Origin: Candidatus Methanomethylophilaceae archaeon
GTDB taxonomy: Archaea; Thermoplasmatota; Thermoplasmata; Methanomassiliicoccales; Methanomethylophilaceae
DNA length: 52,518 nt
Reading direction: 5' to 3'
Assembly (NCBI GenBank): GCA_017540825.1
Contig: JAFYAH010000037.1
Span: 1 to 52,518 of the forward strand
The stretch's first letter is position 1, and each line of letters starts with the position of its first letter. The position numbers were made by a program, and so were the translations under genes. Below, piece after piece: positions 11,365 through 31,500 of the stretch. The notes below the pieces were generated by a model. That model saw only the letters and a program-made list of their open reading frames with translations, ran no database searches and was not told the origin of the DNA.

Positions 11365-14300
11365 ATGAACTATTGCGACAGACTTCGCCCGTTTCATGGG
11401 GCGCTGCTGCTTGCGACGGCGCTCGCATTGGCGATCGTCGCGATGGCGGCGACTCTCTCAGACGACTGCGACGCCGGATCGTCAGGCACATGCGGAGACG
11501 GCCTCACGTGGGTCCTGGACGACAGCGGCCGCCTGACCATATCGGGCGCCGGAGAGATGAAGGACTACAGCTCCGGCGGACCCTGGGGCAAGACGGTAAC
11601 GTCCGTCACCGTGAAGGACGGGGTCAAGTCCGTCGGGAAGTACGCGTTCCGTGGGTGCGTCTCCATCGCGTCTGCCAGGATTGCCGGGTCCGTGGCCTAC
11701 ATCGGGGACGGGGCGTTCTACAACTGCTCCTCCCTGGCCTCTGTGGTCATGGGCGAAGGGACCAAGACCATCGGGGGTTCCGCGTTCTACGGTTGCGCCT
11801 CTCTGAAGTCGGTCGCTCTGCCCGGGTCGCTCGAGTCGATCAAGAGCAGCGCGTTCTCGTACTGCGCCTCGTTGACGTCCGTGTCCATTCCGAAGTCCGT
11901 CACCTTCATAGAGCAGAGCGCTTTCACCCACTGCTCCTCCCTGGGAGCAATCGTCGTCGACTCCGGGAACGCGAAGTACAGCTCGTCGGGAGGCGTCCTC
12001 TTCAGCAAGGACAAGAAGAGCCTGGTCGTGTACCCCTCCGCGAAGCAGGCCAGCAGCTACCACATCCCGGGAACCGTCGAGTCATTGGAGAACTACGCCT
12101 TCTATCAGTGCCCCGGCCTGGCCTCGGTCACGCTGCCCGCCTCGGTGAAGACCCTGGGGAAGAGCGTATTCCGCGGGTGCGACTCCCTCTCGTCCATCTC
12201 CGTCGACTCCGGGAACGCGAAGTACAGCTCGTCGGGAGGCGTCCTCTTCAGCAAGGACAAGATGACCCTGCTGCTGTATCCCGCCGGGAAGCAGGGCTCC
12301 GCGTACACGGTCCCCGGCACCGTGGCCTACATCGGAGACTACGCCTTCGCCGATTGCAGGCACCTGCAGTCCGTCTCCATGCCGAAGTCCGTGACGTACA
12401 TAGGCGACTACGCTTTCTCCGGCTGCTCCTCCCTGTCTTCCTTGACTACGCCCAAGTCCCCGGTGAACATCAGGAACTACGCGTTCTACAACTGCTCGTC
12501 CCTGAAGGCCGCAGACATAGGCGAAGGGGCGACGGCGATAGGCGACAGGGCGTTCTCCGGCTGCGTCTCCCTGACGTCCGTCTCCATACCGGGCTCCGTG
12601 GCCTACATCGGATACGACGCGTTCATCAACTGCTCCTCCCTGGAGTCCGTCGCCGTGCCCGGATCTCTGACGTCCATCAGGGACTCCGCGTTCAGCAACT
12701 GCGTCTCGCTCAAGTCCGCGGTCATCGGCAACGGGGTCACGTTCCTCGGAAGCAGGGCGTTCTACAACTGCTCCTCCCTGGCATCGGTGACCATCGGGGA
12801 CAAGGTGGCGTCCATAGGGGACTCCACCTTCTACAACTGTGTTACCCTGGTTTCGGTAAAGATAGGGAGCGGCGTGACCTCCATAGGGGACTCCGCGTTC
12901 TACAACTGCTCCTCGCTGAGGTCGGCGGTCGTCCCGGACTCGGTGACGCACATAGGCAGCCGCGCGTTCTCGTACTGCGTCTCGCTGGAGTCCGTGGCCC
13001 TGTCTGGCTCTCTGCCGTACGTAGGGCTGGAGGCGTTCTACGGGTGCTCGTCCCTCTCGTCCGTGGCCATACCCGGCTCCGTGACGTCTATAGGCAGCTC
13101 CGCCTTCTCAGGATGCACCTCTCTTAGGTCGGTGAGCATACCGGAGTCCGTGAGGGCCATGGACAGCTCGTCTTTCTACGGGCTGACGTTCTACAGCGGC
13201 TCAGCCAGGCTGTCTCTGGCGGAGATCCCCGGCTACACCTATGTCGGCTCCGGGGACGGGAAGCTCTACCGCCAGGGCGGATTCTCGCTCGCCTATTCCG
13301 TGAGCGGAGGCAAGGCCGCGGTCACCGGCTACGCCGGGGAGATCAAGAACGTCGTCATCCCTGGAAGCTATATGGGATACCCGGTGACCTCGATCGCGGA
13401 GAGGGCGTTCTACGGCTGCACGAGCCTGAAGCAGGTGTCCATACCCTCGTCCGTGAAGTCGATAGGGAGCTACGCGTTCTTCAAGTGCCCGTCGCTGGAA
13501 TCCGTCAGCCTGGGGGCCGTCTCGTCCATCGGGATGAAATCGTTCTCCTACTGCCAGTCGCTCAAGTCGATAGACATCCCCGTGACAGCCAAGAGGATCG
13601 GAGACTACGCGTTCTTCGAGTGCGGGCTGGAGTCCCTGACGATCCCCGGGGACGACGTGAACATAGGGGCCAGCGCGTTCAGCGCATGCAGGTCCATGAA
13701 GGACATACATTTCACCGGCCAGGGGGCGGTCATAGGCGCCAACGCGTTCTACAAGAACAACGGGGTGTCCAGCGTGGACCTATCCACAGTGGCATCGGTG
13801 GGGTTCAAGTCGTTCCCCTACTGCAACGGGCTCGTCTCCGTCACGATCCCCGGCAGCATCGGCACCGTGGGCGAGTACGCCTTCTTCATGTGCGCCAACC
13901 TGAAGGACGTCACCATAGAGGACGGGGTGAGGAAGATCGGGAGGAGCGCCTTCAGCGGATGCAAGATCCTGGAGAGCGTCTACCTCTCCAAGTCTCTTGT
14001 GTACATTGGGCCCAACGCGTTCTACGGGTTCAAGTTCCAGGACCTGGACGGCAAGGCCGTCGACTCGGTGCTGGATCTGCGCGGGCACCTCTATGCCGGC
14101 TACGGCAAGACCCTCCGGATGACCGAGCGCCTGGTCGACGGCGAGCGGTTCTCCGTGGGCGGCCTGAGCTTCACGATAACTTCGGCAGGGTCCCGCGAGG
14201 CAGAGATAACAGGATACGAGGGATCCGTTTCCGCCGTCCCAAGCACCGTGGTCTACAAGGGATGGACGGTCTCGGTCGTCTCCGTCGCGCAAAAGGCGCT

Positions 14301-14544
14301 ATACGGCTGCGGAACCCTGGTGTCCGCGGACCTCACAAACGCGGGATCGATAGGCATGAAGGCCTTCGCAAACTGCCCGTCCCTCAGGGCCGTGACGTTC
14401 GGGGACGGCTTGGAGTCCGTCGGCGGGTATGCGTTCTACGGCATCGCGTTCTACGACGGGAAGACCAGGCTGGACGTTGATCCTGAAGCGCTCGCAGGTC
14501 ATACGTTCTCCGGCACAGCCTTCAGGCTCTATCTCGTCTCCTGA
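11365..14544 (+). CDS. BspA-like leucine-rich repeat surface protein
   Basis: This is a 1,059-residue exported protein made almost wholly of BspA/LRR_5 repeats of about 23 residues with the pattern SIGSSAFSGCTSLRSVSIP. The N-terminus has a basic start and a hydrophobic segment (about 13-32), then a cysteine-containing stretch and the module LTWVLDDSGRLTISGAGEM, which often precedes these repeats. The repeats are interrupted at about 195-225 and 278-300 by two near-identical inserts (SGNAKYSSSGGVLFSKDK). No C-terminal membrane anchor is visible. BspA-type proteins are linked to adhesion and are expanded in gut methanogens. The start is the ATG at 11365, 15 bases after the previous TAG. Confidence 0.88.
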   Translation: MNYCDRLRPFHGALLLATALALAIVAMAATLSDDCDAGSSGTCGDGLTWVLDDSGRLTISGAGEMKDYSSGGPWGKTVTSVTVKDGVKSVGKYAFRGCVSIASARIAGSVAYIGDGAFYNCSSLASVVMGEGTKTIGGSAFYGCASLKSVALPGSLESIKSSAFSYCASLTSVSIPKSVTFIEQSAFTHCSSLGAIVVDSGNAKYSSSGGVLFSKDKKSLVVYPSAKQASSYHIPGTVESLENYAFYQCPGLASVTLPASVKTLGKSVFRGCDSLSSISVDSGNAKYSSSGGVLFSKDKMTLLLYPAGKQGSAYTVPGTVAYIGDYAFADCRHLQSVSMPKSVTYIGDYAFSGCSSLSSLTTPKSPVNIRNYAFYNCSSLKAADIGEGATAIGDRAFSGCVSLTSVSIPGSVAYIGYDAFINCSSLESVAVPGSLTSIRDSAFSNCVSLKSAVIGNGVTFLGSRAFYNCSSLASVTIGDKVASIGDSTFYNCVTLVSVKIGSGVTSIGDSAFYNCSSLRSAVVPDSVTHIGSRAFSYCVSLESVALSGSLPYVGLEAFYGCSSLSSVAIPGSVTSIGSSAFSGCTSLRSVSIPESVRAMDSSSFYGLTFYSGSARLSLAEIPGYTYVGSGDGKLYRQGGFSLAYSVSGGKAAVTGYAGEIKNVVIPGSYMGYPVTSIAERAFYGCTSLKQVSIPSSVKSIGSYAFFKCPSLESVSLGAVSSIGMKSFSYCQSLKSIDIPVTAKRIGDYAFFECGLESLTIPGDDVNIGASAFSACRSMKDIHFTGQGAVIGANAFYKNNGVSSVDLSTVASVGFKSFPYCNGLVSVTIPGSIGTVGEYAFFMCANLKDVTIEDGVRKIGRSAFSGCKILESVYLSKSLVYIGPNAFYGFKFQDLDGKAVDSVLDLRGHLYAGYGKTLRMTERLVDGERFSVGGLSFTITSAGSREAEITGYEGSVSAVPSTVVYKGWTVSVVSVAQKALYGCGTLVSADLTNAGSIGMKAFANCPSLRAVTFGDGLESVGGYAFYGIAFYDGKTRLDVDPEALAGHTFSGTAFRLYLVS
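11956..12015 (+). repeat. 60-base perfect direct repeat inside the BspA-like gene, copy 1
   Basis: This block coding for the insert DSGNAKYSSSGGVLFSKDK is identical over 60 bases to 12202-12261. The surrounding LRR units are diverged, so the identity suggests recent duplication or gene conversion. Confidence 0.85.
12202..12261 (+). repeat. 60-base perfect direct repeat inside the BspA-like gene, copy 2
   Basis: Second copy of the block at 11956-12015, 246 bases downstream and in the same frame. Recombination between the copies would remove 82 codons without shifting the frame. Confidence 0.85.
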
Positions 14545-19880: not shown

Positions 19881-21050
19881 TCAGCCCGAAACCGATGGCG
19901 CATGGGGCCATCGTCCGCGGATGTCGCCCATCAGCGCCATGTCTATGAACCTGACGAGGTCCTCGAAGCCCGGCGGCTCCATATCGGGGTCCGCCTCCAG
20001 CATCTTCTCCTCTATCTTGCACGGCTTCAACCCGCATTCCCTGAGCACATGCCTCACCCATCTCCTGGCGAACGGGTTCAAGGCTCCGATTATGACGAAT
20101 GGGTCTTTCACGCTCTCCACCGGCGACTTCACCCTGCTGTTCTCGTAGTATTCGTTCTCCAGTGTGCGCGGGTAGTGCCTGAGGTCCATGACGTACGGGA
20201 GCCTATCGTCGTACACGCGGTACAGGCGCACGGGGTCCGAGCCCTGCATCCCCTCCTCGCTCAACGATTGGAAGTGCCCGAACGCGATCACGTTCATGTA
20301 AGGGAGTTCTGGAAATGGCGCGGAGGCACCCGGCGAGTCCAGCCGCAGGACTCCCGATCCGTGGTCTATCGCCCCGCACATCCCTACAAGGCTCAGGGCC
20401 ACGTCCTCGAGCCTGGAGTCGCTGACCTTGCTTTCCGGCAGGAAGGGGGCCTCCGACCTGACCAGCCCGCTCATCTCGAACGGGTACAGGGTGCAGAACT
20501 CCGCGAACCCGCACTGCCTCTCGCCGCAGACCTCCACCGGCAGGAAGGACTCGCTTTTCGAGCGCACGGTTGCGAACATCTCGGGGAAGCCCATCATGTG
20601 CCCGGCCAGGTCGCTCCATCCCTTGTTGCCCGGGTCCTTCAGCATCTTCCCGAGGGAGTCCAGGTCCTGGCTGCCTTCGTACTCCCTGAAGCGGCCTTTA
20701 TCGAAGAACGTGACCATGGTGTTCGTCACGATCGCGGCGACGATCTCGTTCCTCACGTCCTGCGCGGAGCCGTTGGCCACCTTGTGATGCCTGCGGACCG
20801 CGTACGCCGTCCATCCCCTGACCGCCCTGGCCCTCTCCTCGAACCCCGCGACGTCCGGGGGCGCGATGTTCCTGCCGATCTCGGGATACATGCACGCCAT
20901 CGTCAGAGCCACGGAATAGGACGTCCTGTACGCGTCCGAATCCGCGGACGGCGGCCTTCCGGGCATGGAGCCCCTGAAGCGGCGGTTGTACTCGCTCCTG
21001 CCCAGGCTGAAGTCCAGCTTTACCCTCTTGGCTTCAGTCATCTTCGTCAT
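19881..21050 (-). CDS. cassette protein C, copy 1 (unknown family)
   Basis: I do not recognise this 389-residue family. Its closest visible relative is the 419-residue protein at 27268-28527, with which it shares most of its length. Shared features are KLDFSLGRSEYNRRF near the start, a RAVRGWT.YAVR segment, a cysteine cluster C175-x4-C-x5-C186 (CGERQCGFAEFC), the motif MDLRHYPRTLEN, and DPFVIIGALNPFARRWVRH. There is no signal peptide or membrane helix, so it is probably cytoplasmic; the cysteine cluster could bind metal. Its ATG overlaps the end of gene B by 17 bases, indicating translational coupling. It stops with TGA, convergent with the ohrR gene. Confidence 0.75.
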   Translation of the reverse strand: MTKMTEAKRVKLDFSLGRSEYNRRFRGSMPGRPPSADSDAYRTSYSVALTMACMYPEIGRNIAPPDVAGFEERARAVRGWTAYAVRRHHKVANGSAQDVRNEIVAAIVTNTMVTFFDKGRFREYEGSQDLDSLGKMLKDPGNKGWSDLAGHMMGFPEMFATVRSKSESFLPVEVCGERQCGFAEFCTLYPFEMSGLVRSEAPFLPESKVSDSRLEDVALSLVGMCGAIDHGSGVLRLDSPGASAPFPELPYMNVIAFGHFQSLSEEGMQGSDPVRLYRVYDDRLPYVMDLRHYPRTLENEYYENSRVKSPVESVKDPFVIIGALNPFARRWVRHVLRECGLKPCKIEEKMLEADPDMEPPGFEDLVRFIDMALMGDIRGRWPHAPSVSG

Positions 21051-21918
21051 CGCCTTTAGTGTAGAACGGGGTCTGGCCCATCGCTCCCAGGCAGCGCTTC
21101 TTCCGCACCGCCCTGGGCGCCTTCAGCTCGCGGTCCGCGCCCTCGAACATCTCGATCGGAAAGTCTCCCAGGCCAGCGCAGGCCTTGCCCGTTTCTCTCC
21201 AGAACACGTGGGGGAGGCCGCAGAGCCCGGATGCACCGAGGCGCGACAGGTTCTCTCTGGCGGTGGCATCGCCCTTTGCCGCCGCATACCAGATGAGCTT
21301 CAGGGCGTCCTCGGCCGTGGACTCCCTGCCTATCATCTCCAGGCCGTCCTTCCTGGACAGCATGCAGTACCCGACGGCCGAGCATGCCTCCGGGTGTCCC
21401 GATTCCGCAGAGCACACGACCCATCTCATGGACTGCGGGGTGATGTCCCTGCTGGCGATTACCAAGGCGTTCGCCAGCTCGTACTGGGCCGCCGGATGGC
21501 CGCATATGGCCGCCGCCTCGAGCCATCTCGTCCGCTCGGAGGCAGGCAGGGACATGGCGGTGGAGAACATGGCCTCAGGGCTCTCGTACCCTTCGTCCAT
21601 GGTCAGGCCGAACGTCTCGTCCTGGGCGTCCTCGTAGGAGCAGTCTGCTATGCCGCGCACCTCGAACCCGATGCTGCCGAGGACCCTCCTGTGGGCCTCC
21701 GCTGGAACCGGAAGGTCCGCGGCCCACTCGTCTTCCCCGTACTCCAGCCATCTGCCGGCCCTGGTCTCGGGAGAGGCTTCGACCGCTCTCATAAGACGTT
21801 CGAACTGGCCGTCCTCAGCTTCCTCGAGCAGGGACGAAGCCCGGTCAAGGCTCCATCTGGACATGACGTCGTCGGTCGATATGCTCCTGACCAGCCTTTC
21901 CGGCGCCACCCTGAACAT
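21034..21918 (-). CDS. cassette protein B, copy 1, Sel1-repeat protein
   Basis: The 294-residue protein contains Sel1/TPR-like helical repeats in its middle (GHPAAQYELANALVIASRD, GHPEACSAVGYCMLSRKDG, STAEDALKLIWYAAAKGDATA), preceded by a conserved N-terminal domain (MFRVAPERLVRSIS, ASPETRAGRWLEYGEDEW). Such repeats usually hold protein partners. There is no signal peptide. In-frame sequence continues upstream through six codons to the TAG that ends gene A, so an A-B fusion by amber readthrough is possible. A paralogue with internal amber codons lies at 28352-29389. It ends in TGA within the start of gene C. Confidence 0.75.
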   Translation of the reverse strand: MFRVAPERLVRSISTDDVMSRWSLDRASSLLEEAEDGQFERLMRAVEASPETRAGRWLEYGEDEWAADLPVPAEAHRRVLGSIGFEVRGIADCSYEDAQDETFGLTMDEGYESPEAMFSTAMSLPASERTRWLEAAAICGHPAAQYELANALVIASRDITPQSMRWVVCSAESGHPEACSAVGYCMLSRKDGLEMIGRESTAEDALKLIWYAAAKGDATARENLSRLGASGLCGLPHVFWRETGKACAGLGDFPIEMFEGADRELKAPRAVRKKRCLGAMGQTPFYTKGDDEDD

Positions 21919-21936
21919 GAAGCTTTCTATGCCTTC

Positions 21937-23058
21937 CTACATCTCTTTGTCTTCAGGGCCGGCGGATGCGCATCCTGCGATGGTCCCCAGCACGGGGACT
22001 ATCCTGTCGTACACCGCGAACTCCAGCTCAAGGCTCCCTTCGCATGCGTCTATGGCCGATAGCAGCCGCTCCAGGCCCATGTCCCTGTCGAGGCAGATCC
22101 TCACGGCGTACAGGGAGGCCGTCATCTCTGCGAGGGTCTCGGACGTCCTGTAGGCGTCCATGGCCTTGCGAAGCGTGTCGTCTGTGCGGTCTTTCACCAA
22201 TCCGCGGAGGCCGACCATGAAGGGGTCGTCCGAGAGCTTGCGGTAGAGCCTCCCGTTGGGGCCTTCGACCAGGATGTCGCGCGCGCCTTTTATGTCGACG
22301 GCGCCGTCGATCCCGCAGGCCAGCGCCATGGCTCTGCAGAACGGGCTCCCGTCGGCCATGACCGCCTCGGCTACGTCTCTGTCCGATTCCGCCGGCTCCG
22401 ACAGCGCCGCCATCAGGGCTAGGCAGTCGGCAGCCTCCTGCTCGGAGCCTTTCTTCCGAGAGACGAGCTCGCTGTGCCTCTTCATCCCTCCGCAGTCAAC
22501 GTAGTCGTAGAGGGACCGTTCCGGCAGGCTGTCGTTCGTCATCTTGTCCATGGACCCCGTCAGCGGGAAGTAGGTTCCCCTTCCGCCCAGGAAGTATTCG
22601 GGAGTCTTTCCGGGCTTGGATATCCTTCCGAGATACCCTGTCAGGGAATCGCCGTCTATGATCACGACCGAATCCAGGGCGCGGCATCCTTCGAAGGCGG
22701 TAGGGTCGACGTTGGCTACAGGCATCGTCACCGTCTGCAGGCGGCGGCAGCCTTTGAACGCCTCCCTGCATATGCGCCTCAGGCTTGGCGGGAGAACGAC
22801 TTCTTCCACCATCGATGCCGAGAATGCGAAATCGCCTACGGATCTGACCTTGAACGTCTCCCCATTCGCAGATACCGTTTCCGGAACGTATGCGAAGCGT
22901 CTTCCTTTTCCGCAAGAGATCACCTCTGCGATGCCGTCCTCGCAATCGAACTCGACCCCTTCCGTCTTGACGATGCGCCTCATTCCGTCCGAGTAATCGG
23001 CGGGAGGTTGATAGCGTTGTCGGGGCTGCTTCGGTGCTCGGGTGTCGTTGCGTCGCAT
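21937..23058 (-). CDS. cassette protein A, copy 1, with short LRR_5-like region
   Basis: The protein has a mixed N-terminal region (VEFDCEDGIAEVIS, RRFAYVPETV) leading into two or three BspA-type repeats (FAFSASMVEEVVLPPSLR, REAFKGCRRLQTVTMP, TAFEGCRALDSVVI). A long helical C-terminal region follows with ACGIDGAVDIKGARDILVEG, GPNGRLYRKLSDDPFMV and YDRIVPVLGTIAGCASAGP. It is homologous to the copy at 29408-30502 from GMRRIVKTEG onward. I chose ATG 23058; the frame is open to an ATG at 23208, which would add a hydrophobic stretch not seen in copy 2. It stops with TAG (21937-21939), seven codons before the in-frame ATG of gene B. No function can be assigned. Confidence 0.7.
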   Translation of the reverse strand: MRRNDTRAPKQPRQRYQPPADYSDGMRRIVKTEGVEFDCEDGIAEVISCGKGRRFAYVPETVSANGETFKVRSVGDFAFSASMVEEVVLPPSLRRICREAFKGCRRLQTVTMPVANVDPTAFEGCRALDSVVIIDGDSLTGYLGRISKPGKTPEYFLGGRGTYFPLTGSMDKMTNDSLPERSLYDYVDCGGMKRHSELVSRKKGSEQEAADCLALMAALSEPAESDRDVAEAVMADGSPFCRAMALACGIDGAVDIKGARDILVEGPNGRLYRKLSDDPFMVGLRGLVKDRTDDTLRKAMDAYRTSETLAEMTASLYAVRICLDRDMGLERLLSAIDACEGSLELEFAVYDRIVPVLGTIAGCASAGPEDKEM

Positions 23059-23724
23059 ATACCCAGATTCCGATGATGACGAGGCTGTCCAATACGTCGA
23101 GAGAATCAGCAAGGGCACGGAAGGCGGTTCTGAAATGTATTCTGTGAGCGCGCTGACGCATTCGACGAACATAAACAGCGCTATCAGCATGGCAGGGTAC
23201 GCCCCCATGTGCCTTCTCCGATATAGGTCAGGGCGGAGAGGATCTAGGGGACCGCGCCGAAAACCAGCGCTACGCTGGTATAGCCGGAGCCGTTCCAGGG
23301 CTGGATTGCATGAAGATCGCCCTGGGCGCTATCTGGAGAAGGTCCTGTGTCACGGCGCATCCTGCAGAGACGTGGAAGCTGCGGAGAATCTCGTCTGGCT
23401 CTGCGACAAATAAGGGTGTGACAAGCTGGACGAGATGGTCCTGTCCGGGATCGAGAGCAGGATTCGCGGTCCGTGAACCGTTCCGCTTCAGTTATCGCCG
23501 TTGCGGGACCTTCGGTAGCATCGGCATAAACTTCAAACGCTGGCCGTCCGAGTACAGGACTGTGGATCGAAAGTGCCTGTTCAGATGCGTCCCGATGAAG
23601 GCCGAGAGCAATGTGGCTGACATCTTCGAGAACAGGAACTTTCTGATGACGGGTCAAGGGCCTTGTGGATTTCTGCAAGACGATGGACGGCGCGGTAGTG
23701 ATGCTCAGGGTCATGGCGAGGGGC
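23059..23724. other. 666-base interval with probable decayed coding sequence
   Basis: No intact gene is seen. On the plus strand, protein-like pieces occur in different frames and are broken by stops: GRYLEKVLCHGASCRDVEAA then WLCDK, TAA, GCDKLDEMVLSGIESRI (about 23315-23475), MKAESNVADIFENRNFLMTG (about 23596-23655), and VDFCKTMDGAVVMLRVMARG (about 23662-23725). They look like remnants of one or more genes, possibly a transposase, but I cannot name the family. Promoters of gene A copy 1 must also lie here. Confidence 0.35.
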
Positions 23725-27267: not shown

Positions 27268-28527
27268 CTAATCAAATTCAAGGTGTGATGCAAGGGTTCC
27301 GCAGCTTGTTGTTTTTTCAGCGTCTTGTTCCAATAGCATGAAACCTTTGTATCGGTTGTTCTCTTCATGCTCGTCCTGTAACATCTTATCTATGAACTTG
27401 ACAAGGGTATTGAAGTCAGGCGGATCCATGTTCGGATTGGCTTCCAGCATCTTCTCTTCGATCTTGCATGTTTTGACTTTGCAGTCCTTGAGTATATGCT
27501 TGACCCATTTCTTGGCGAACGGGTTAAGGGCGCCCATTATAACGAATGGATCTTTCACGCTTTTCAGCGGAGATCTGACTTTGTTGTTATCATAGATGCT
27601 GTTCTCGAGGGTGCGGGGATAATGTCTGAGATCCATGATGTAAGGGCGTTCGTCGTCGTATATGCGGTAGAAGCGGACCGGGTTCGATCCTTGCATCCCC
27701 TCTTCGCTTATCGACTGGTAATGCCCGAATGCTATGACGTTCCTGAAAGGAAGATCCGGGTATGGCATCGAGGTCCCTGGCGAGTTCAGGCGAGAGACCC
27801 CTGCCTCATGGTCTATCGTCTTGCACATCCCTACAAGGCTGAGGGTGGCGTCTTCAAGCTTGATGTCTTCGACTTCGCAGTCAGGAAGGACCGGGGCGTC
27901 CGATCTGACGATGTCGGTCATTACATAAGGGTGCAGGATGCAGAACTTCACGAATCCGCACTGTTTTGTATTGCAGATCTCCACCGGCAGGAACGCGCCC
28001 TCCCCGCATGCATCGTCGCCAGTCTCGTTCGAGCATATTATGGAGAACAGCTTCGGAAAGCCCATCATGTGTCCTGCAAGATCGCTTCTGCTCCTGTCAC
28101 TCGGGTTTTTCAGCATCTTCCCTAGTTCATCGATGTCGACCGTGTCTTCGTATTCTTTGAAGCGGCCTTTTTCGAAGAACGTTACCAAAGAATTGGCAAT
28201 GATGGCGGCTACGACCTCATTCTTCACATCCTGCGCAGAGCCGCTCGCTATCTTGTGGTGCTTCCGGACTGCATACACGGTCCATCCCCTGACCGCCCTT
28301 GCTCTTTTCTCGAATCCTTCGATGTCTTCAGGCGTGATGTTTCTTTTGATGTTACGATACATGCACGCCATCGTCAGAGACACTGAGAAGGACGTCCTGT
28401 ATGCCTCGGACCCTATGGCAGGCGGCCTTCCTGGCACCGAGCCTTTGAAGCGCCGGTTGTATTCGCTCCTTCCGAGGCTGAAGTCCAAGCACACCCACTT
28501 GGCTTCGGTCATCGTCATCGTCTCCAA
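27268..28527 (-). CDS. cassette protein C, copy 2 (unknown family)
   Basis: This 419-residue paralogue of the protein at 19881-21050 keeps the same order of features: VCLDFSLGRSEYNRRF, RAVRGWTVYAVRKHHK, the cysteine cluster CNTKQCGFVKFC, MDLRHYPRTLEN and DPFVIMGALNPFAKKWVKH. It has an insertion containing NETGDDACGEG before the cysteine cluster and a longer C-terminus. It overlaps the end of gene B copy 2. The stop is TAG (27268-27270); readthrough would add only nine codons before a TAA. Base composition is more AT-rich than in copy 1, so the copies have separated for some time while both kept an open frame. Confidence 0.75.
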   Translation of the reverse strand: METMTMTEAKWVCLDFSLGRSEYNRRFKGSVPGRPPAIGSEAYRTSFSVSLTMACMYRNIKRNITPEDIEGFEKRARAVRGWTVYAVRKHHKIASGSAQDVKNEVVAAIIANSLVTFFEKGRFKEYEDTVDIDELGKMLKNPSDRSRSDLAGHMMGFPKLFSIICSNETGDDACGEGAFLPVEICNTKQCGFVKFCILHPYVMTDIVRSDAPVLPDCEVEDIKLEDATLSLVGMCKTIDHEAGVSRLNSPGTSMPYPDLPFRNVIAFGHYQSISEEGMQGSNPVRFYRIYDDERPYIMDLRHYPRTLENSIYDNNKVRSPLKSVKDPFVIMGALNPFAKKWVKHILKDCKVKTCKIEEKMLEANPNMDPPDFNTLVKFIDKMLQDEHEENNRYKGFMLLEQDAEKTTSCGTLASHLEFD

Positions 28528-29389
28528 GACTGAACGGGGTCTGTCCCATTCCCCTTCTGCAGTGTCTCTTCATAACCGCTCTGGGGGCCGTTAGTCTGCC
28601 TTTGACAGATTCGAGGCTCTATTTCGGCGCGGACTCACGTGCAGATGAATTGACTCCGAACGCTTCTTTCCAGCGCAAGCGCAAGGGGCTGCACAGTCCG
28701 GATGCGCTCAGGGTCCGCAGGTTTTTCAGGGCGGTCTGCTCGCCACTCGCAGCAGCATACCATGCGAGTTTCAGAGCGTCTTCGACCGTGGCTTTTTTCC
28801 CGATCATGTCCAGGCAGTCCTGTTTTGAGAGTATGTAGTATGCGATTGCCGAGCACGCTTCCGGAAATCCGGAGGCCGCAGAGCAGAGGAACCATTTCAT
28901 GGACTGGGGGGTTGTGGTCATGTTCAGCGCCACAAGCTCGTTCGCCAGCTCGTATTGGGCGGCAGGATGCCCTTGGACGGCCGCTACCTCAAGCCATCTC
29001 ATCCGCTCGGAGGCAGGCATCGAAGCGGCTGTCGCGAATATGGCCTCTGGGCTTGCATACTCCTCCGCCATGGCCGTCTCGTTACTTTCGTTCCTGGCGT
29101 CCTACAGGGAGCATTCTGCCATGCTGCGAGCCTCGAACCCGATGTTCTTGAGCAACTTCTTATGAAATTCCGGTAGCTCCGGCTGGTCTGCCGTCCATTC
29201 GTCCTCTCCATATTCAAGCCATCTGCTGGCCCTGGTTTCGGGAGAGGCTTCGACTGCCCGCATCAGGCGCTCGAACCTGGCGTCCTCCGCCTTTTCGAGC
29301 ATGATCGAAGCCCGGTCGAGGCTCCAGATTGACATGAGGTCGTCCGCAGATATGCTTTCTGTCAGTCTTTCCGGAGCTACCCTGAACAT
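28352..29389 (-). CDS. cassette protein B, copy 2, Sel1-repeat protein interrupted by two in-frame amber codons
   Basis: From ATG 29389 the frame matches gene B copy 1 (MFRVAPERL; ASPETRASRWLEYGEDEW; GHPAAQYELANELV; ATVEDALKLAWYAAASG). It has TAG at 29102-29104 (ECSL-TAG-DARNE against DCSYEDAQDE) and TAG at 28619-28621, after which homology continues (LTAPRAVMKRHC, RGMGQTPFSLGDDDDD). There is no TAA, TGA or frameshift over the homologous length. Both ambers fall where copy 1 appears to have Glu. The ancestral TGA at the end has become CGA, so the frame runs on to a TAA at 28352 inside gene C. It is either read through, for example as pyrrolysine, or a young pseudogene. Conventional translation gives 95- and 150-residue pieces. 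Confidence 0.6.
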
Positions 29390-29407
29390 AAAATCTTCAA
29401 TGCGCCG

Positions 29408-30502
29408 CTATGCTATCGTCTCGTCCGGGCCGGCGGAGGCGCATCCTGTTACGGCTCCCAGCACCGGGACGATCCTGTCGTACACTGCGAACTCCAGTTC
29501 TCTGCTCCCCTCGCATTTGGCTATAGCCGACAGCATCTGCTCCAGGCCCATGTCTCTATCGAGGCATATCCTAACGGCGCACAGAGAGGCTGTTTTTTCC
29601 GGAAGGGTCGTGGACGACCTCCATATTTTCATGGATTCGCGAAGGGATTCGTCGGTGCGTCCTTTGACGACCTCGCGGAGCCGGACCATGAACGGGTCCT
29701 TCGAAAGCTTGCGGTAGAGCCTTCCGTTCGGCCCTTTTTCTAGAATCTCGCGGGCCCCTTTCGTATCGAAGGCTCCATCGATGCCGCAAGCCAGAACCAT
29801 CGCTCTGCTGAACAGGCTCCCTTCGAGAAAGGCCGTCATCGCTATGGTCTCGTCTATCTCTGCAGGGTTAGACAGAACCGCCATCAACACGAGGGCATCA
29901 GCCGTCTCCTGTTCGGCGCCCTCCTTCGTGCAGAGGCTTTCGTGGGTTCTGTATGTCGACCCGATGTCCACGTAGTCGTATATGGATCTCTTCGGCAGGC
30001 CGCAGCATGGCATATCGTCCGCCGATCCGGCAAGCGGAAGATAGGGGCTACATATGCAGATCCGGTCTTTGGAAGCCTTTCCCAGCCTCGATATCCTCCC
30101 CAGATAGCCGGTGAGCCGGCCCTCTTCGACGATTATTACGGAATCCAAGGCGCGACATCCGTCGAACGCGGAGGGATCGACGTTCGCATAGGGCATAGCT
30201 ACCGTCTGCAGATTGCGGCAGTCCTTGAACGCTTCTTTGCAGATGCACCTTAGGCTCGGAGGCAGCACGATCTTTTCTACTGCAGATCTCGAGAAGGCGA
30301 GCTCCCCTATGGAGACTACCTTGAACGATCTCCCCTCCATCGACACCGTTTCTGGAATATATGCGAAGCGCCGACCCTTCCTGAACGAGATCACTTCTGC
30401 AGATTCGCCATCGCAATCAAAACCGATGCCGTCGACCTCGATCACATGTTTCATTCCGCTATTGGTAATAGTCTTGGGCATGATAGCGCTGTCAGACATC
30501 AT
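29408..30502 (-). CDS. cassette protein A, copy 2, with short LRR_5-like region
   Basis: This 364-residue paralogue of the protein at 21937-23058 has the same domains: IGFDCDGESAEVISFRKGRR, LRR_5-like units (ELAFSRSAVEKIVLPPSLR, KEAFKDCRNLQTVAMP, SAFDGCRALDSVII), then ACGIDGAFDTKGAREILEKG, GPNGRLYRKLSKDPFMV and YDRIVPVLGAVTGCASAGP. There is no signal peptide. It ends with TAG (29408-29410), five codons after the shared GP, then six codons and the in-frame ATG of gene B, exactly as in copy 1. A seven-base-stem hairpin (TAGGCGA/TCGCCTA, 30526-30544) lies just upstream of the start. Confidence 0.75.
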   Translation of the reverse strand: MMSDSAIMPKTITNSGMKHVIEVDGIGFDCDGESAEVISFRKGRRFAYIPETVSMEGRSFKVVSIGELAFSRSAVEKIVLPPSLRCICKEAFKDCRNLQTVAMPYANVDPSAFDGCRALDSVIIVEEGRLTGYLGRISRLGKASKDRICICSPYLPLAGSADDMPCCGLPKRSIYDYVDIGSTYRTHESLCTKEGAEQETADALVLMAVLSNPAEIDETIAMTAFLEGSLFSRAMVLACGIDGAFDTKGAREILEKGPNGRLYRKLSKDPFMVRLREVVKGRTDESLRESMKIWRSSTTLPEKTASLCAVRICLDRDMGLEQMLSAIAKCEGSRELEFAVYDRIVPVLGAVTGCASAGPDETIA

Positions 30503-30636: not shown

Positions 30637-31500
30637 ATGAATAAGCTCATTATTATTGCTGCGATCTGTGCAATAGCAGCAATAGGCGCCGTAGCGGCCG
30701 TTCTTCTGTCAGCGGGGGACAGCGATAAAGAGCACAGTGAGAAAGAGTTCAAGGATCCGTATCTTTTGGAGCTGAAAAAAGGGGACTATATCGAATATTC
30801 CGGCGACGATCACCACCTTGGTATAAGGATTTCTGAGGTCCTGGAAGGTGGCTGGTACAAACTAGAGGCATATGACGGCGATATGACGGAAGACGCGCGC
30901 CTCACAATGAACAGGATCCAGTTCCTGTCCAACATGTACCCGCATATCACTACTAATTGGAACCTTTTCAATTTGCCGGCAGTAGACGAAAGCAAATACG
31001 TGGGCGTCTCCCCGATCGACTTCAACGGCAGAACGATTGAATGCAAGGTCTACGGATCTTCCGTCTACACATTCGTAGGAGATTACGGAATCGTGTACGG
31101 GCAGGGGGACTCTCCTGACTCTCCTGACATCGTTCTTAAAACTTCGTTGCTGGACGGGTCCAAGCATGGCATAGCTAAGGATCCGTTCTCCAAAGAACTG
31201 AAGGTAGGCGATTACATAGAGAAGGGCGTTATTAGCGTAAAATATGACGAGAACGGATTCACAGGGTGCCTAAACAAGGTCGATTTCATGCTTGCATCCT
31301 GTATCTTCCCCCTAAATTCCTACGGGGAGTCGAGTGGCAAAAAGGCGATAAGCTTCAACGGAAAAATAATCGATTGCGATCTGTACGATGACGGGCCTTA
31401 CGGCTACGACTATTATGTCGGAGACTATGGCATCCTGTACAGATCCATCAGCGATACAGGAACATCCAACTTGAGGACTAACCTGGACTTCTCCATCTGA
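30637..31500 (+). CDS. secreted/membrane-anchored protein with internal duplication
   Basis: The 287-residue protein has an N-terminal membrane segment (about 4-22) followed by a charged linker. Two related halves follow: LELKKGDYIEYSG, PIDFNGRTIECKVYG and VGDYGIVYG in the first, ELKVGDYIEKGV, AISFNGKIIDCDLYD and VGDYGILYR in the second. The pattern suggests two small beta-rich domains outside the membrane. The start has a TATA-like TTTATATG about 22 bases upstream, so the message is probably leaderless. A shorter relative lies at 32017-32556. No function can be assigned. Confidence 0.65.
   Translation: MNKLIIIAAICAIAAIGAVAAVLLSAGDSDKEHSEKEFKDPYLLELKKGDYIEYSGDDHHLGIRISEVLEGGWYKLEAYDGDMTEDARLTMNRIQFLSNMYPHITTNWNLFNLPAVDESKYVGVSPIDFNGRTIECKVYGSSVYTFVGDYGIVYGQGDSPDSPDIVLKTSLLDGSKHGIAKDPFSKELKVGDYIEKGVISVKYDENGFTGCLNKVDFMLASCIFPLNSYGESSGKKAISFNGKIIDCDLYDDGPYGYDYYVGDYGILYRSISDTGTSNLRTNLDFSI

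Follow-up and report, generated by a model that had tools for sequence, protein, structure and literature searches.

Two adjacent reading frames on the minus strand, A and B, probably constitute a single gene in which the TAG at their junction is read as pyrrolysine (Pyl), so that one protein is made; we give this reading a probability of roughly 0.84. The tRNA-Pyl(CUA) would decode the junction TAG as pyrrolysine, and the product would be a single protein of about 650 residues, with a BspA-type LRR cap and a helical repeat array ending in Sel1-like repeats. The Pyl residue would probably lie in or beside a helix of this array, and the split into A and B would be an artefact of applying the standard code. 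The one-protein reading rests on the pyl operon, on wide use of TAG as a sense codon in the genome, on coding homology and purifying selection that extend to either side of the TAG, and on its occurrence in four copies belonging to two species. We infer that Pyl is inserted at the site, that full-length A-B predominates among the products and that the residue may have a role. The window (the whole stretch of DNA that was analysed, 52,518 nucleotides) carries two copies of the cassette, with these features:

21037..22983, minus strand: copy 1 A-B, one ORF with the TAG read through, starting at a Met invariant in four copies
21937..21939, minus strand: junction TAG of copy 1, predicted to encode pyrrolysine at residue 424 of the longest ORF (349 counting from the likely start)
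28529..30502, minus strand: copy 2 A-B, a single ORF containing three TAGs but neither TAA nor TGA
29408..29410, minus strand: junction TAG of copy 2, in frame
29102..29104, minus strand: second in-frame TAG of copy 2, within B, aligned with Glu in the other three copies
28619..28621, minus strand: another in-frame TAG of copy 2, the third, where the C-terminal part is variable; homology picks up again beyond it
19881..21050, minus strand: gene C copy 1, 389 aa, overlapping the end of B
27268..28527, minus strand: gene C copy 2, 419 aa as called, the ORF itself ending in TAG
30637..31500, plus strand: gene D, divergent, adjoining copy 2, with an N-terminal hydrophobic segment

The preliminary description of this DNA had pointed to an in-frame TAG followed by an in-frame ATG at matching places in both copies, and this pattern is real. 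On the minus strand, the junction reads ...AGPEDKEM-TAG-EGIESF-MFRVAPERL in copy 1 and ...AGPDETIA-TAG-RRIEDF-MFRVAPERL in copy 2. Within one frame, the TAG stands five codons on from the shared GP, as first described, and exactly six codons intervene before the ATG. The A-B frame of copy 1 ends at a TGA (21034-21036) and is open upstream as far as an ATG at 23208. Two further in-frame TAGs of copy 2 had been missed; homology to copy 1 continues past both of them. It had also been proposed to look at the junction codon in homologues. Two copies were found in a sister genome ("Methanomassiliicoccaceae archaeon isolate Tb.RUG.172"), and the codon is TAG in both, at the same column and with the same spacing, so that a codon alignment shows the junction TAG in 4/4 copies from two species, in frame and followed by six codons and the ATG. 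This recurrence in a second species makes the match at the junction better than expected by chance. The six-residue spacers are EGIESF, RRIEDF, DVIEDF and EKIWRF. The view that their differences are mostly silent or conservative was overstated: three of six residues differ between copies 1 and 2, and across the four copies only Ile and Phe are invariant within the spacer, as is the Met that follows it.

We searched 147 genomes of the order with the full-length sequence and found the A-B family only in this genome and the sister genome, with two copies in each; those of the sister genome are at about 50% identity. Gene C, an uncharacterised family of about 390 aa, has the same distribution (two genomes of the 147) and stands beside A-B in all four cassettes, and homologues of gene D adjoin both cassettes of the sister genome. 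No relative of A-B was found in viral contigs, and a viral origin was rejected on that ground. The A part matches LRR_5 (PF13306) with 34.2 and 35.3 bits against a cut-off of 27.7, which identifies it as a BspA-type LRR protein. For B, Pfam gave no match, Sel1 (PF08238) above its cut-off included, and profile comparison gave weak matches to Sel1 structures (E 1e-4 to 9e-3); we therefore term it only Sel1-like. Neither MtmB, MtbB nor MttB was matched by A-B, its only matches being to LRR_5, to Sel1 structures and, weakly, to unrelated families. Searches with gene C against Pfam, NCBIfam and PADLOC returned nothing, nor did AlphaFold, the model being unusable (pLDDT 38). Judging from its repeats, A-B likely acts as a binding or scaffold protein together with gene C. 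A 1059-aa BspA-type LRR protein is also encoded elsewhere in the window (11365-14544).

The genome carries the complete pylTSBCD set whose presence the preliminary description had left to be confirmed. The window is contig 36 of the assembly; on contig 68, tRNA-Pyl (anticodon CTA) is followed by pylS, pylB, pylC and pylD in order; pylT was identified by ARAGORN, pylS and pylC by family match, and pylB and pylD were named from place and sequence. Within the genus, 28 of 31 genomes have pylS, the sister genome among them. We then quantified the use of TAG over 1.41 Mb of the 2.37 Mb assembly, with a gene set from a simple codon-usage caller, which makes the counts approximate. Under the standard code, the 917 ORFs end in TGA (734), TAA (95) or TAG (88); thus TGA ends eight times as many ORFs as TAG, and TAA about as many. 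Among ORFs with at least 10 open codons beyond the stop, the frame continues to look coding in 36% for TAG, 9% for TGA and 6% for TAA. Internal TAGs flanked by coding-like sequence for 40 codons on both sides number 38 in 1.41 Mb, and the same test yields 51 for TGA and 4 for TAA. When the count was restricted to the 450 ORFs that look most like genes, 19 had TAG as their stop; roughly half of the 19 plainly extend beyond it, and the remainder are without clear coding sequence downstream. Single Pfam domains spanning a TAG are MttB, in which Pyl is expected, HTH_3 (in an HTH-CBS regulator), an OB fold, an integrase, a HAD hydrolase, DUF6270, a T4SS (conjugation) coupling protein and RNA polymerase Rpb1 domain 1 (A' copy). 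Taken together, the reading frames of this genome indicate that TAG is widely used as a sense codon.

Several of these genes deserve separate mention. The RNA polymerase A' gene (L050:2414-5413, on contig 13 of this genome, G000) has its in-frame TAG at codon 40, in Rpb1 domain 1. The assembly also holds a second A' copy without the TAG (G000:C48:40528-40794; 88% identical over 89 aa). With this copy present, the first gene no longer serves to show that TAG decoding is required for an essential function; the pair may reflect either a genuine duplication or the presence of two strains in the bin. Proteins with Sel1 repeats and LRRs are very numerous, with LRR open frames of up to 5062 codons. 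One ORF (L058:1428-2861) joins Sel1 repeats and a BspA-type LRR, with an in-frame TAG at residue 276 separating them; it thus resembles A-B in the placement of TAG between Sel1 and LRR, with the domain order reversed. Two DUF6270-Sel1 proteins, L045:3165-5156 and L055:14956-17601, contain two and three in-frame TAGs, respectively.

An AlphaFold model of A-B, run with Lys in place of Pyl, shows an LRR cap and helical repeats, and Foldseek searches with it gave confident matches only to LRR proteins. One helix (343-369) passes through the TAG residue 349, with a local pLDDT of about 66-72. Since the model is poor overall (mean pLDDT 52.7, pTM 0.34), the single helix is weak evidence that the junction TAG may fall within a helix and not at the edge of a domain. 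The invariant Ile, Phe and Met across the junction would be compatible with a helix through the site.

Could the TAG nevertheless be a nonsense mutation, or a true stop? That the copies are decaying pseudogenes would agree with the three in-frame TAGs of copy 2 and with an in-frame TAA in one sister copy. We regard it as very improbable, given that TAG is the only stop codon found ahead of the C-terminus in the two A-B frames of the window, with neither TAA nor TGA nor any frameshift there, that four copies carry the same TAG, and that most comparisons give a dN/dS far below 1 on either side of the TAGs. Over A and B, dN/dS is mostly 0.2-0.5, and synonymous sites are close to saturated, with pS of 0.55-0.67 in A and a dS of around 1 or higher. 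Purifying selection is hence evident on both flanks; for the spacer, where it had also been expected, the estimate (spacer plus ten codons, four sequences) scatters from 0 to 1.36, the stretch being too short for a reliable value. The TAA just mentioned, in the copy on contig 10 of the sister genome G061 (L118), lies 27 codons past the junction TAG between otherwise conserved residues, and may reflect either a sequencing error or recent decay of the gene. A genuine stop, with B made as a separate protein by coupling or by re-initiation at the ATG 18 nt downstream, is somewhat less implausible, and we still consider it improbable. The ATG of B and its distance from the TAG are invariant across the four copies, and the sister copies have a GAGG motif in one case and a strong one in the other, the purine-rich GGAGGT 3 nt from the ATG (GGAGGTTC-ATG), where a separate start for B is conceivable. 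The statement that there is no good ribosome binding site thus holds for copies 1 and 2; of the sister copies, one has a weak motif and the other a strong, very close one. However, copy 2 is without an SD motif, and that of copy 1 is weak and sits at the distal end of the spacer. In the four copies the best anti-SD energies are -5.5, at a distance of 19 nt from the ATG, -1.7, -5.8 and -10.0, the last only 3 nt from it, and no ribosome binding site is conserved among them; as the SD-like signals are not conserved, a conserved separate start for B is unsupported. Moreover, the spacer Ile and Phe are invariant, the genome widely reads TAG as sense, and copy 2 and the second sister copy would in any case need TAGs elsewhere in the same genes to be read.

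Two further possibilities accept that Pyl is inserted and concern why the TAG is there. In one, a stronger version of the one-gene reading and not exclusive of it, two products are made by design: some ribosomes would stop, giving A, and others would insert Pyl, giving A-B, both being needed, with the TAG kept for this reason and the ratio of A to A-B tracking the supply of Pyl-tRNA and hence of methylamine. In the other, which is compatible with the one-gene reading and competes with the idea that Pyl matters, the TAG would be a sense codon like any other, retained in the four copies by chance. The five codons before the junction TAG and the two after it are all variable, and the TAG is invariant; among columns with equally variable surroundings, 3/126 keep one codon in all four copies. 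When we considered only columns where copies 1 and 2 share a codon, again in equally variable surroundings, 3/30 were also common to both sister copies. This 10%, which is not negligible, is the fairest estimate of chance survival, and the case for selection on the TAG is on this account modest statistically, suggestive and not strong. With dozens of TAG sites in the genome, one survivor would not be astonishing either. Against chance stand the synonymous distances of about 1 or more and the fate of the other TAGs. Five occur inside cassette genes, of which A-B has three and C two, and none of the five is shared between copies: they lie within the LRR part of one sister copy, B and the variable C-terminus of copy 2, and gene C of both sister copies, which have one each at different places. 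All five align with sense codons, that of the copy 2 C-terminus weakly. Likewise, the other TAG sites of the genome that have a homologue in the sister genome are sense codons there, none being TAG, which would also suit two products. On balance, we rate chance survival somewhat below even odds, and two products as unlikely: few genes end in TAG and many ordinary ones have it read within them, a pattern that suits steady decoding better than a switch; the model places no domain border at the TAG; and at the junction we found no Rfam match, little covariation and, after the TAG, a folding energy equal to that of codon-shuffled controls. For the same reasons we set aside amber control as the main reading. 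The cassette had been put forward as a candidate "amber-controlled two-domain system" that would be made partly as one protein by readthrough. Readthrough in a Pyl-decoding member of the Methanomassiliicoccales is the best explanation, and the word "partly" finds no specific support; TAG is a general sense codon, found in the cassettes themselves within coding sequence of A, B and C type, and neither a conserved RNA element nor a conserved ribosome binding site accompanies it. Partial termination or regulation at the TAG is possible.

The single A-B protein read through its TAG can be compared with several known systems. In MtmB, MtbB and MttB, as in A-B, an in-frame TAG is kept across homologues, and in the methyltransferases it is decoded as Pyl; an MttB with in-frame TAG is present in this genome. 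A-B differs in being a repeat protein with no methyltransferase family match. Ca. M. alvus has 1.6% TAG stops and 16 predicted non-methyltransferase Pyl genes, and steady TAG decoding rather than a switch has been argued for it (Borrel et al. 2014, PMC4153887). Our genome is similar to those Methanomassiliicoccales in having the pyl operon, rare TAG stops and TAG in ordinary genes. In the "Pyl code" archaea of Kivenson et al. (Science, 2025), all TAGs are reportedly read as pyrrolysine. Here, too, TAG would be read as Pyl across the proteome, although some TAG-ended ORFs lack clear downstream coding and full reassignment is only a possibility. Finally, A-B is like BspA-type LRR and Sel1-repeat proteins in its N-terminal LRR_5 match and the weak Sel1 profile matches of B, and unlike them in its combination of LRR, helical and Sel1-like parts with gene C, which in our searches is confined to this genome and its sister.

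Pyl in non-methyltransferase proteins has already been predicted for the order, and A-B would add a further case; what would set it apart is that the Pyl site is conserved in a protein other than a methylamine methyltransferase. That Pyl is selected at this site of a non-methyltransferase scaffold, whether for its chemistry or because it sets how much A is made relative to A-B, as a readout of Pyl or methylamine supply, is a tentative proposal that we consider somewhat unlikely. The splitting of real genes by standard gene calling in such archaea is a warning in itself. Predicted Pyl outside the methylamine methyltransferases often seems to be a tolerated accident, absent from relatives; this one persists in four copies across two species with synonymous changes close to saturation, which makes it a testable candidate for a useful Pyl elsewhere.
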